Part shown: positions 16,587-20,413 of the stretch, piece after piece
Layout: each line of letters opens with the position of its first letter
Numbering within the stretch: the first letter of the stretch is position 1
NCBI GenBank assembly: GCA_030657355.1
Contig: CP131056.1
Location: forward strand, 372,001 to 436,000
Length of the DNA: 64,000 nt
Source of the DNA: Radicibacter daui
Lineage (GTDB): Bacteria; Pseudomonadota; Alphaproteobacteria; Radicibacterales; Radicibacteraceae
Direction of reading: 5' to 3'
Position numbers and translations under genes: made by a program
Notes under the pieces: model-generated
What the model was told of the DNA's origin: nothing
Seen by the model: only the letters and a program-made list of their open reading frames with translations
Database searches by the model: none

Positions 16587-17069
16587 CTATTTGCCGTCCG
16601 CAGCCGCCTCGATGGCCGGCAGATCCAGCTTCACCATGCCCATCATGGCCTGCATGGCGCGCCCGGCGCGGGCCGGGTCCTTGTCCTTGAGGAGTGCCAG
16701 CAGGCGACGGGGCGTGACCTGCCAGGTCATGCCGTATTTGTCGGTAATCCAGCCGCATTGCATGGCCTCGCCGCCATCGGCGCCGAGTTTTTCCCACAGC
16801 GCATCGATCTCGTCCTGGCGCTCGCAATTGATCATCAGCGAAATGGCCGGGGTAAACTGAAACTCCGGCCCGCCATTGAGGGCGAGGAACTCCTGTCCCT
16901 CGATCTCGAACGAGACGGTCAGCACACTACCGGGCGTGCCGTGCCCCACCTCGCCCCAGCGCAGCATGTCGGTGATGCGGGCATCGGGAAACAGCGAGCA
17001 GTAGAAGTTGGCAGCTTCTTCCGCCTGACCGTTGAACCACAGGCAGGGAACGATCTTCTGCTTTGTCAT
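16587..17069 (-). CDS. VOC family protein (PhnB-like)
   Basis: 160 residues. It begins KIVPCLWFNGQAEEAANFYC and contains SFEIEGQEFLALNGGPEFQF, the typical PhnB/3-demethylubiquinone-methyltransferase-like VOC family (name by homology only; no methyltransferase function is implied). It is the third gene of the NTF2-VOC-VOC run, whose promoter candidate lies at 18070-18096. Genes of this family are frequent ECF41/ECF42 neighbours. Substrate unknown. Confidence 0.87.
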   Translation of the reverse strand: MTKQKIVPCLWFNGQAEEAANFYCSLFPDARITDMLRWGEVGHGTPGSVLTVSFEIEGQEFLALNGGPEFQFTPAISLMINCERQDEIDALWEKLGADGGEAMQCGWITDKYGMTWQVTPRRLLALLKDKDPARAGRAMQAMMGMVKLDLPAIEAAADGK

Positions 17070-17094
17070 GGGGTTTCCTCTGATCTTTCGGGGT

Positions 17095-17523
17095 TCAGCC
17101 CTGGTTGCGCTGGTTCATGGCCCACAGCACGCCGAACGGATCGACAAGCTGGCAGTAGCGATCGCCCCAGAACATGTCGGTAGGCGGCATCTTCACTTCG
17201 GCGCCGGTAGCCACCGCCCGCTCGAAGCGGGCATCGATGTTGTCCACCATCAGCGTCATGGTGAAACCCTGCGGCTTTTCCACCGGGCAGCCATGCTCGG
17301 GAAAACCGTCGCTCAGCATCACCGAGCTGCCGTTGATATAGAGATGCACATGCATGGTACGGCCCCGCTCGTCGGGTGGATAGGCGAAGGCAAGTTCCGC
17401 CCCGAAGGCCTGCTTGTAGAACTCGGCCGCCTTGAAGGCGCCGTCCACCTGCAGATAGGCGACGACGCCGCCCTTTGTTTCCACCGGCGCTGCGGGGGCC
17501 GTGTTTTCCTGAATCTTGTCCAT
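17095..17523 (-). CDS. VOC/glyoxalase family protein (PhnB-like)
   Basis: 142 residues from ATG 17523, chosen because GGAGG stands just upstream; a longer frame to 17712 lies over the neighbouring gene. VVAYLQVDGAFKAAEFYKQA and VMLSDGFPEHGCP resemble the PhnB family, and the C-terminus WGDRYCQLVDPFGVLWAMNQ is diagnostic. Middle gene of the probable ECF42-controlled operon. Function unknown; VOC metal ligands are only partly recognisable. Confidence 0.87.
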   Translation of the reverse strand: MDKIQENTAPAAPVETKGGVVAYLQVDGAFKAAEFYKQAFGAELAFAYPPDERGRTMHVHLYINGSSVMLSDGFPEHGCPVEKPQGFTMTLMVDNIDARFERAVATGAEVKMPPTDMFWGDRYCQLVDPFGVLWAMNQRNQG

Positions 17524-17581
17524 GGTTGTTCCTCCGGTTCTGTCTGCTCTGGTTAAAGTCCGGGCCGCCGGGAGGACGGCC

Positions 17582-18016
17582 TCAGGGCGTGAGGTCGGTG
17601 GCCGCGCGCACGCTGCCATCCATGTAAAAAGGCGTGGAGATGTGGTCGTGGGTGATGCGCCAGCCGCCGTCGCGGCGGCCAAACACCACAGTGCGGCGGG
17701 TCCACACGGCAACCGTCTCCCCCGCCTTTTTGGTGCCGCTGATGCGCAGGAAGCCGTGCGCCACAGCCAGCGGCCCGCTGGAGGTCACCTCGATATCCTT
17801 CAGCTCATATCCGATCGGCCCGTCCCAGGTGGCAAACCAGGCTTCGATACCGGCCCGGTCTGCTCTGGCATCGCTGCGATAGGCCAGCGGCGGGGCAAGA
17901 TCGTAGACGACCGAGCCCGGGGCATAGGGTGCCAGCGCCTGTTCGGCGTCCTTCAGGCGGATGGCATTGGCATGCACCTCCAGCAAGGTGCGGATCGCCG
18001 CTTCATCGAGCGTCAT
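17582..18016 (-). CDS. NTF2-like/SnoaL-family protein (YybH-type)
   Basis: 144 residues: EAAIRTLLEVHANAIRLKDA at the N-terminus and GGWRITHDHISTPFYM near the C-terminus form the cone-shaped NTF2 fold of the SgcJ/YybH group. It is the first gene of the operon NTF2-VOC-VOC. A TGTCGG-N17-CGTC promoter-like sequence lies about 55-80 bases upstream of its ATG. No catalytic residues are assigned; homologues bind small hydrophobic ligands. Confidence 0.87.
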   Translation of the reverse strand: MTLDEAAIRTLLEVHANAIRLKDAEQALAPYAPGSVVYDLAPPLAYRSDARADRAGIEAWFATWDGPIGYELKDIEVTSSGPLAVAHGFLRISGTKKAGETVAVWTRRTVVFGRRDGGWRITHDHISTPFYMDGSVRAATDLTP

Positions 18017-18069
18017 GGCTGACCTCCTCTTGTCCGGGCGGCCCTTCAGGGCGGGCTCATGCCCTTAAG

Positions 18070-18096
18070 GACGCGCGGGAGAAGGTGAGGCCGACA
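18070..18096 (-). promoter_or_regulatory. ECF42-type promoter candidate for the NTF2-VOC-VOC operon
   Basis: On the minus strand: TGTCGG (18091-18096), 17 bases, CGTC (18070-18073). An A/T tract (CGGAAAAAATTTTAA) precedes the -35 box. The same layout recurs at 19801-19827 and 19859-19885. As I recall, the published ECF42 consensus is close (TGTCGA, CGA/TC). Confidence 0.7.
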
Positions 18097-18125
18097 GGGC
18101 CCTTAAAATTTTTTCCGAAAAATCT

Positions 18126-19382
18126 TCAGCCGGGGATGCCGGCTTCCTCCCCCAGCTTGTCGAGGTGCTGGCGGATCAGCGCGGCTTCGGCCGGTGTGTT
18201 GGCAAGACAGATGGCCTGATTGAAGGCGGCGCGCGCTTCCGCCTTGCGGCCGAGCTGGAGCAGGAAGTGCCCGCGCGCGCCATGGTAGGGGAAATAGGCG
18301 CCGAGCCTTTCCGCCAGCGGCTCGATGAGCGCCAGCGCCTCTGCGGGGCCCAGCACCTTGGATATGGCGACCGCCCGGTTGAGGGTAATGACCGGTGAGG
18401 GCTGCATGCGCTCCAGCGCGGCATAAAGCGCGGCGATGGAGCCCCAGTCGGTCTCGCCGGCGCGGGCACTGCGGGAATGTTCGGCAGCAATCGCGGCCTG
18501 CACCTGATAGGGGCCGGGGCGCTGGTGGCGCACCGCCTTGTCGATGAGCGCCAGCCCCTCGCCGATCAGCTTGCGGTTCCAGAGCGTCCGGTCCTGTTCT
18601 TCCAGCAGGACGATTTCGCCTGCCGCATTGAACCGGGCCGGTGCCCGGGCGTGCTGCAGCAGCATCAGCCCCAGCAGCCCCATGATCTCCGGCTCGGCCG
18701 GAAACAGCCGGAGCAGCAGCCGGGCAAGGCGGATCGCCTCCTCACACAGGTCCGCATCCCCCGCCAGCTGCGGTTCGCGTACGGAATACCCTTCGTTGAA
18801 GACCAGATAGGCCATCGCCGCCACGGCGGCGAGGCGCTCGGACCGTTCCACCGCTCCCGGCGCCTCGAACGGCACGTCGGCTTTGGCGATGCGGGCCTTG
18901 GCGCGGGTAATGCGCTGTTCCATTGCCGCTTCGCCCACCACAAAGGCGCGGGCGATCTGACGCACGCCAAGGCCGCAGACAATGCGCAGGGCAAGGGCGA
19001 TCTGCTGGGTTGCCGGCAGGTCCGGATGGCAGCAGATGAAGAGCAGTCTCAGCACATCGTCGCGGTATTGCGCCCCGTCCAGCCGTTCGGCCAGCGGCGC
19101 TTCGGCGTCTTCAAGGTCAGACAGCACGGCTTCTTCAGGCAGGGCCTCCTGCCGGCTCATCCGGCGGGCACCATCAAGGGCGGCATTGCGCCCGACCATG
19201 ATCAGCCAGGCCGCCGCATCGCGTGGCGGCCCGTTGACCGGCCAGTGCTTCAGCGCACGCAGGCAGGCCTCCTGAAACGCCTCTTCCGCAGTGTCCAGAT
19301 CGCGGAAATAGCGCAGCAGCGCCCCAACGGCCCGCGGGCGGGCGCCAGTCAGCGCTGCATTGATCCAGCTCTCCTCGCTCAT
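18126..19382 (-). CDS. ECF42-type RNA polymerase sigma factor with C-terminal TPR extension
   Basis: 418 residues, about twice the length of an ordinary ECF factor. Regions 2 and 4 occupy about residues 1-160 (LDTAEEAFQEACLRALKHWP and QQIALALRIVCGLGVRQIARAF). The rest is the DUF6596/TPR-like tail (AVAAMAYLVFNEGYSVREPQ, PYQVQAAIAAEHSRS, VITLNRAVAISKVLGPAEAL). ECF42 proteins have no anti-sigma factor; the tail is thought to regulate activity. It is 12 bases after the DGPF/YCII gene in the same operon, exactly the family context. Distinct from the ECF factor at 6271. Confidence 0.93.
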   Translation of the reverse strand: MSEESWINAALTGARPRAVGALLRYFRDLDTAEEAFQEACLRALKHWPVNGPPRDAAAWLIMVGRNAALDGARRMSRQEALPEEAVLSDLEDAEAPLAERLDGAQYRDDVLRLLFICCHPDLPATQQIALALRIVCGLGVRQIARAFVVGEAAMEQRITRAKARIAKADVPFEAPGAVERSERLAAVAAMAYLVFNEGYSVREPQLAGDADLCEEAIRLARLLLRLFPAEPEIMGLLGLMLLQHARAPARFNAAGEIVLLEEQDRTLWNRKLIGEGLALIDKAVRHQRPGPYQVQAAIAAEHSRSARAGETDWGSIAALYAALERMQPSPVITLNRAVAISKVLGPAEALALIEPLAERLGAYFPYHGARGHFLLQLGRKAEARAAFNQAICLANTPAEAALIRQHLDKLGEEAGIPG

Positions 19383-19394
19383 GATCCAGCGGCC

Positions 19395-19769
19395 CTAGAC
19401 GGCGGTGCGCGGGTCGGCGTTATAAAGTCCGACGGGGCGGATTTCATAAGCGCCGCCCGGATTGGCGGCAGCAAGCTCGCGGGCAAAGGCCAGTGCCTCT
19501 TCGAGCCCTTCCACATCGATGATGTAGAAGCCGAGCAGCTGTTCCTTGGTCTCGGCAAAGGGCCCGTCCAGCACCAGCGGCGGGTCTTCGCTCTTGCGCA
19601 ATGTGGTGGCCGCCGTCGTCGGCAGCAGGCGCAGCGACGGGCCGAGTTTGCCGGCTTTCACCCATTTTTCCTGCACCTGGCCAAGCCGCGCCATCACGGC
19701 ATCGTCCTCTTCCTTGCTCCAGGACCAGACGACATCCTCATCGTGATAACAAAGCAGGGCATAGAGCAT
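19395..19769 (-). CDS. YCII-related (DGPF) protein, ECF42 partner
   Basis: 124 residues. It contains VLDGPFAETKEQLLGFYIID, the DGPF signature typical of proteins encoded with ECF41/ECF42 sigma factors, and a YCII ferredoxin-like fold with EEALAFARELAAANPGGAYE. First gene of the DGPF-ECF42 operon; an ECF42-type promoter candidate is centred about 45 bases upstream. The biochemical role of DGPF proteins is unsettled. Confidence 0.9.
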   Translation of the reverse strand: MLYALLCYHDEDVVWSWSKEEDDAVMARLGQVQEKWVKAGKLGPSLRLLPTTAATTLRKSEDPPLVLDGPFAETKEQLLGFYIIDVEGLEEALAFARELAAANPGGAYEIRPVGLYNADPRTAV

Positions 19770-19800
19770 GGGGTTCCTCCGGTCGCATTTCTTTTTAGAA

Positions 19801-19827
19801 GACGTGCCACTATGCCCGCAGCCGACA
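19801..19827 (-). promoter_or_regulatory. ECF42-type promoter candidate for the DGPF-sigma operon
   Basis: Minus strand TGTCGG (19822-19827), 17 bases, CGTC (19801-19804), about 32 bases before the ATG. It is back-to-back with the plus-strand copy at 19859-19885 and shares the AT-rich tract between them. Confidence 0.7.
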
Positions 19828-19858
19828 GGGCTGTTCCGGAAAATTTTTAAACTCCGGG

Positions 19859-19885
19859 TGTCGGCATTGCCCGAAGCCGGGCGTC
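19859..19885 (+). promoter_or_regulatory. ECF42-type promoter candidate for the SRPBCC gene
   Basis: TGTCGG (19859-19864), 17 bases, CGTC (19882-19885), 42 bases before the ATG at 19928. Preceded by CCGGAAAATTTTTAAAC, similar to the tract ahead of the 18070 promoter. Confidence 0.7.
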
Positions 19886-19927
19886 CTCAGGGGGAACGTC
19901 ACCTGAGCCAATAAAAGGGAGGACCTC

Positions 19928-20413
19928 ATGGCCACCAAGCTCGACATCGCGCCCGCTTCCGACCGCGAACTGGTACTGCGCCGCCTCGTTGACGCGCCGC
20001 GCGAGAAGATCTGGCGCTGCTGGACGGAGCCGGAACTGATGAAGAAATGGTTCTGCCCGCGCCCGTGGACCACGCCGCTGGTGGAGATGGATGTACGCCC
20101 CGGCGGCAGTCATCACATGGTGATGAAGGGGCCGAACCCGGGTGAAGAGCATGATCTGCGCGGCGTCTTTCTTGCGGTGGAACCGCTGGAGCGCCTGACC
20201 TTTACCGATGCCTTCGTCAGCGCCTGGCAGCCGTCGTTGAAGCCCTTCATGGTGGCGACGCTGGAGCTGGAGGCCCAGGGCGACATGACCGTCTATACCG
20301 CCCGCGTCTGGCACTGGAGCGTGGCGGACCGCGAAGAACACGAGAAGATGGGCTTCCACGAAGGTTGGGGCATTTGTGTGGAGCAGCTGGAAGAGGTGGC
20401 AAAGGGGCTCTAG
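19928..20413 (+). CDS. SRPBCC/AHSA1 family protein
   Basis: 161 residues. The AHSA1 (START-like) fold is marked by RLVDAPREKIWRCWTEPELM (about 18-37) and KKWFCPRPWTTPLVEMDVRP, and by the ending HEGWGICVEQLEEVAKGL. The cavity probably binds a hydrophobic ligand. GGGAGG stands before the ATG. It is divergent from the DGPF-ECF42 operon with its own promoter of the same type, so it is very likely part of that regulon. Confidence 0.9.
   Translation: MATKLDIAPASDRELVLRRLVDAPREKIWRCWTEPELMKKWFCPRPWTTPLVEMDVRPGGSHHMVMKGPNPGEEHDLRGVFLAVEPLERLTFTDAFVSAWQPSLKPFMVATLELEAQGDMTVYTARVWHWSVADREEHEKMGFHEGWGICVEQLEEVAKGL

Follow-up and report, generated by a model that had tools for sequence, protein, structure and literature searches.

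Introduction

The ECF42 sigma factors of Streptomyces venezuelae reportedly use a TGTCGA -35 element and have mainly DGPF genes as their targets. A review describes the TPR extension and the YCII neighbour of ECF42 factors, together with a YCII fusion in Caulobacter (PMC8999054). ECF-10 of Pseudomonas putida, also a member of the ECF42 group and with a similar genomic context, is associated with antibiotic stress, oxidative stress and biofilm phenotypes (PMC8999054, PMC6180224). In Sinorhizobium meliloti, overexpression of the ECF42 factor RpoE10 raised SMc01149-SMc01148 and SMb20475-SMb20474, the promoters of which read TGTCGG-N17-CGTC (Lang et al. 2018, PMC6180224), and the regulon includes one distant target operon (PMC6180224). 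The YCII-rpoE10 operon of that species carries the same boxes, yet SMc01151 (DGPF) was not induced by RpoE10 overexpression, and the motif and the start mapped for this operon overlap (PMC6180224).

Here, we analysed a window of 64,000 nucleotides from Radicibacter daui (contig CP131056.1, positions 372,001 to 436,000), in which an earlier note had proposed a self-contained ECF42 regulon with three near-identical promoter candidates. As in the RpoE10 regulon, TGTCGG-N17-CGTC promoters accompany a YCII-sigma operon, genes for hydrophobic-ligand-binding (SRPBCC-like) and glyoxalase-like proteins adjoin it, and one or more targets lie at a distance. Since the same TGTCGG/CGTC boxes and the same kinds of genes have been published (PMC6180224), the window adds a further case to an already described kind of circuit. 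Unlike in S. meliloti, however, the SRPBCC gene is divergent here and has an A/T block in common with the sigma operon, NTF2-VOC-VOC genes follow the sigma gene, and the distant targets are a DoxX gene and an orphan DGPF gene. We assign a probability of about 0.86 to the whole reading, namely an ECF42 (RpoE10-type) regulon with an UP-like A/T block and an overlapping sigma70 promoter at DGPF-ECF42. The result is a clearly bounded ECF42 regulon, comprising five promoters of a single genome together with their predicted starts. It widens the model of ECF42 promoters to an A/T block, boxes and a start-site step, and it suggests an explanation, open to testing, for the failure of the apparently autoregulated ECF42 operon of S. 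meliloti to respond to RpoE10.

The ECF42 gene cluster

The sigma factor gene (18126..19382, minus strand) encodes a 418 aa protein with sigma2 and sigma4 domains and a DUF6596/TPR-like C-terminal extension. In the Pfam search, Sigma70_r2 and Sigma70_r4_2 were above cut-off and DUF6596 was found in the extension (1.1e-33), while TPR_8 was weak and under its cut-off. The AlphaFold model (mean pLDDT 83) consisted of two sigma domains and a long helical-hairpin array, with residues 177-414 forming all-helical hairpins and the linker joining the sigma domains (residues 79-102) predicted at low confidence. The best PDB structural matches of this model were TPR proteins, a designed TPR protein being at the top, and the ECF factors sigma L and sigma H ranked lower; a search by sequence for a solved ECF42 relative found none. 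The adjoining gene encodes a DGPF/YCII protein (19395..19769, minus strand; 124 aa; Pfam YCII 3.4e-20) that contains LDGPFAETKE and has 1s7i (PA1349) as its PDB relative. The typical domains, the C-terminal extension and the DGPF neighbour confirm the assignment of the sigma factor to ECF42 made previously from the sequence. The S. venezuelae ECF42 proteins likewise combine sigma2-sigma4 with a TPR extension and DGPF neighbours. No anti-sigma gene was found near the ECF42 gene, where Pfam placed the neighbours in the EamA, LysE, AraC-type, AHSA1, VOC and NTF2 families. The activity of ECF42 is probably gated via the TPR extension, by protein contact.

On the other strand, a divergent gene encodes an SRPBCC/AHSA1 protein (19928..20413, plus strand; 161 aa; Pfam AHSA1 3.9e-29). 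Beyond the sigma gene, three minus-strand genes encode an NTF2-like SnoaL_3 protein (17582..18016; 144 aa; Pfam 3.4e-15), a VOC protein of the Glyoxalase family (17095..17523; 142 aa; Pfam Glyoxalase 3.1e-16) and a VOC protein of the PhnB / 3-dmu-9_3-mt type (16587..17069; 160 aa; Pfam 3.1e-46; PDB 1u69). DGPF, VOC, SRPBCC, NTF2 and DoxX are small-molecule or stress-associated folds, and any biochemical role of the regulon would be putative. The single detoxification or modification pathway put forward in the earlier note would be speculative and is not adopted here.

A scan of GTDB genomes for relatives yielded 80 loci with ECF42 orthologues, to which the ECF42 of the window is 66-76% identical, and a DGPF-like frame was present in 82 of 83 loci. 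Apparent DGPF-ECF42 fusions in several loci were rejected, the long frames being ECF42 frames that stay open upstream. The two are truly joined only in a Phenylobacterium locus (L070), in which one open frame holds both DGPF and ECF42, as either a real fusion or a frameshift.

Promoter sites and their conservation in relatives

TGTCGG-N17-CGTC had only three exact matches in the window, one before each of three transcription units, where the earlier note had placed them. The ECF42 promoter of DGPF-ECF42 lies at 19801..19827 on the minus strand (-35 TGTCGG 19822-19827, -10 CGTC 19801-19804; score 45.3), that of SRPBCC at 19859..19885 on the plus strand (-35 TGTCGG 19859-19864, -10 CGTC 19882-19885), and that of NTF2-VOC-VOC at 18070..18096 on the minus strand (-35 TGTCGG 18091-18096, -10 CGTC 18070-18073; score 33.8). 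All three units are thus preceded by ECF42-type promoters, which are near-identical in their boxes but differ in their 17-base spacers. The predicted ECF42 starts are ~19792 (-) for DGPF-ECF42, ~19894 (+) for SRPBCC and ~18060-18061 (-) for NTF2-VOC-VOC.

We found that TGTCG-N18-CGTC, equivalent to 17 bases after TGTCGG, occurred 153 times and in 79 of the 80 orthologous loci, with 6 occurrences of the reversed pattern. Other box spacings were far rarer than N18; the highest, N15 (79 times in the 80 loci), is one of the in-frame spacings and probably reflects coding background. An exact site stood on the DGPF side in 74 of 80 loci, and five of the other six had, in the same place, a site mismatched at one or two positions, leaving L039 alone without one. 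Downstream of the non-DGPF sites in relatives were SRPBCC, VOC and NTF2 genes, to which Pfam added DoxX_2 (L059, L061, L090, L099 and L103), more SRPBCC proteins and DUF899. Conservation of the boxes in orthologous loci was thereby observed before DGPF-ECF42 and before SRPBCC, VOC, NTF2 and DoxX genes. In 58 genomes of relatives, the full signature with TGTCGG was present in only four (G000, G004, G009 and G041), the very ones in which identity between the best ECF42 and the query reached 51% or more.

After removal of near-duplicates, 53 sigma-operon and 59 target promoters were aligned on TGTCGG. The resulting model comprises an A/T block at -18 to -10 (AAAAATTTT), TGTCGG, 17 bases, CGTC and Y-T. 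A pyrimidine-purine step was present at offset 34/35 in 54 of 59 target promoters and coincides with the mapped start position of S. meliloti SMc01149, which is the last, lower-case base of the printed sequence, at offset 35 (PMC6180224). By analogy with S. meliloti, we infer that ECF42 activates these promoters. It would direct RNA polymerase to promoters composed of an A/T block, about 10 bases and TGTCGG-N17-CGTC-Y-T, with DGPF-ECF42, SRPBCC and NTF2-VOC-VOC as predicted targets here and the orphan DGPF and DoxX genes elsewhere.

In the window, the A/T block common to the two divergent promoters (AAAATTTTTAAA) lies at about 19840..19851, and a second block (GGAAAAAATTTTAA, minus strand) lies at 18103..18114 before the NTF2 promoter, shortly after the stop codon of ECF42; both are conserved in position. 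The earlier note had regarded the tract as shared by all three promoters; one tract does serve the divergent pair, but that of the NTF2 promoter is similar, not identical. At least six of the eight positions from -18 to -11 were A/T in 48 of 53 sigma-operon and 54 of 59 target promoters (102 of 112 in all), and the DNA farther upstream had 36-38% A/T. This fixed distance and its conservation support the earlier idea of an UP-like element. The block probably acts as an UP element, which would be bound by the C-terminal domain of the RNA polymerase alpha subunit and would raise transcription. A terminator reading of the tract at 18103-18114 was rejected, as the same block precedes promoters without a gene end before them.

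A candidate sigma70 promoter inside the spacer of the sigma operon promoter

At offset 13-18, the sigma-operon promoters carried C-A-T-A-C-T, and the target promoters were C/G-rich. A match of at least 4/6 to TATAAT at offset 13 was found in 26 of 53 sigma-operon promoters versus 0 of 59 target promoters (Fisher 5e-11), a result reached in none of 2000 permutations, the maximum of which was 6 even with the best of twelve offsets allowed. The copy in the window is a sigma70-like -10, CATAGT, at 19809..19814 on the minus strand, which matches TATAAT at 4/6 positions at the conserved offset and marks a candidate overlapping promoter. A -35-like TTGAC/TCGAC stood 16-18 bases upstream in 20/53 sigma-operon promoters versus 5/59 targets (Fisher 2e-4); the sigma70 -35 of the window is weak (GGAACA, 3/6). 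Moreover, TGTCGG-N7-NATANT-N4-CGTC gave 15 matches, versus 5 for the reversed control, in 385 genomes of the class, a sample that includes the window genome, may overlap in species with the discovery set and is thus not fully independent. Eleven of the 15 matches stood directly before DGPF-ECF42, the window copy being one of them.

The simplest reading, suggested by these sequences, is that the CATACT-like hexamer marks an overlapping housekeeping promoter, the start of which would fall on the CGTC box. Such a sigma70 promoter in the ECF42 spacer would be a basal source of the sigma factor and a competitor of the ECF42 holoenzyme, and the overlap could explain the absence of RpoE10-dependent induction of the SMc01151 operon in S. 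meliloti. The SMc01151 spacer has TAGCGC, not CATACT, at offset 13-18 (PMC6180224), and the SMc01151 start appears on the CGTC box if the start site is the last base of the printed sequence; given this poor hexamer, only the start position of the S. meliloti precedent agrees with the overlap. The proposal that the sigma factor drives its own gene therefore holds for the box, which is conserved before DGPF-ECF42, but is qualified by the uninduced S. meliloti operon and by the extra sigma70-like -10 in the spacer.

Alternatively, ECF42 itself may recognise the hexamer as part of the spacer, or another regulator that gives the sigma operon a different response may bind there. This would agree with the fixed position of the hexamer and its specificity for the sigma operon, and also with the often weak matching sigma70 -35: the one in the window matches at 3/6, and at least 4/6 is reached in only 20/53 promoters. 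We nevertheless consider it unlikely, because the hexamer resembles TATAAT at the most conserved positions of the latter, and because the -35-like TTGAC/TCGAC at 16-18 bases is commoner in sigma-operon promoters than in targets. Furthermore, an embedded sigma70 -10 predicts the overlap between the motif and the mapped SMc01151 start, and the hexamer survives in a Bradyrhizobium MAG (L101 ~2245-2271) although the two ECF42 boxes of its sigma operon have decayed (CGTCGG and CGTT, with CATACT intact).

The preferred sigma70 overlap would be the sole new element of the regulon. This novelty is provisional: a literature search found no report of a sigma70 overlap for ECF42, the main ECF42 papers being outside its reach. 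Across Alphaproteobacteria, we regard it as somewhat probable that the ECF42 operon promoter is composite, with a sigma70 -10 in its spacer and mutually exclusive holoenzymes, that the output of the sigma operon is basal and competition-limited, and that the hexamer-less targets are purely ECF42-dependent.

The promoter of the NTF2-VOC-VOC genes

The NTF2-VOC-VOC genes lie on the same strand as DGPF-ECF42, their promoter comes directly after the ECF42 stop, and the A/T tract after ECF42 contained no convincing terminator by eye, all of which would suit a reading in which these genes are mainly transcribed by read-through from DGPF-ECF42 and the 18070-18096 site is minor. This reading is improbable, however, since the score of the site (33.8) is typical of true target promoters and the gene after ECF42 carries its own conserved site in most relatives.

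Distribution of the promoter in the genome

The earlier note had suggested scanning the genome for the two boxes. In the 5.06-Mb genome, TGTCGG-N16-18-CGTC gave 90 matches versus 60 for the reversed control. With this loose two-box pattern only 1.5-fold over the control, the boxes alone are weak and would not convince, whereas their conservation does. The exact N17 pattern occurred 13 times, three of these inside 1.8 kb. When the A/T block and CGTC-Y-T were added, the genome count was reduced to the three window sites with 0 in the control, and it is this fuller signature, not the two-box pattern, that is specific. A chance origin of the boxes in GC-rich DNA, as the figures of 90 and 60 might be taken to imply, is refuted almost beyond doubt by the specificity of the full signature and by the conservation, across the 80 loci, of position, spacing, flanks and gene context.

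With the A/T block, the boxes and CGTC-N-T at zero mismatch, the three window sites were joined by C1:2616875-2616919 (-), located 2.2 Mb from the sigma gene, where an orphan DGPF/YCII gene starts 48 bases further on. Allowing one mismatch added C1:578605-578649 (-), which is 188 kb away from the regulon of the window and precedes a DoxX gene. Both sites scored ~24 with a weight matrix built without the window, and for all YCII, AHSA1 and DoxX genes of this genome the highest score of any further site nearby was 8.9; these scores cover pattern matches and family loci, and true targets range from 16 to 53 on the target matrix. For 19 genes with 100 upstream bases each, we estimated that ~0.002 such sites would be expected among ten non-local exact sites; 2 were seen, DoxX having been partly picked after its site had been seen. 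Given these strong promoter copies before the distant DoxX and orphan DGPF genes, the regulon is not self-contained as had been claimed, and we count it, from sequence matches, as a predicted five promoters and eight genes in this genome.

The orphan DGPF gene (L116 1071-1454, -; site 1503-1529, -) is downstream of a LysR-type gene. At the DoxX gene (L181 3139-3597, -), the ECF42-type promoter ends CGTCCTAGG, and a small NTF2-like (SnoaL-type) frame, recognised by eye, lies upstream (L181 3713-4105). Among the remaining exact sites, those of L011, L014, L030 and L177 were rejected as lying inside long frames, and those of L176, L179 and L180 as being without the flanks. A weak sixth candidate (L178 1467-1493; C1 ~2243.4 kb) is located 31 bases before an SDR-type oxidoreductase gene, with its A/T tract ~10 bases too far upstream.

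A second ECF42 gene of this genome (C1:1054668-1055858) encodes a protein 38% identical to the ECF42 of the window. It likewise follows DGPF genes, two in number (L182 4918-6889, C1 ~1053.9-1055.9 kb; also L112:640). Unlike in the window, its upstream site reads TGTCGA-N17-CGTC, for which reason it is probably a separate circuit. The comparison suggests that the two ECF42 circuits are kept apart by the last base of the -35 element.
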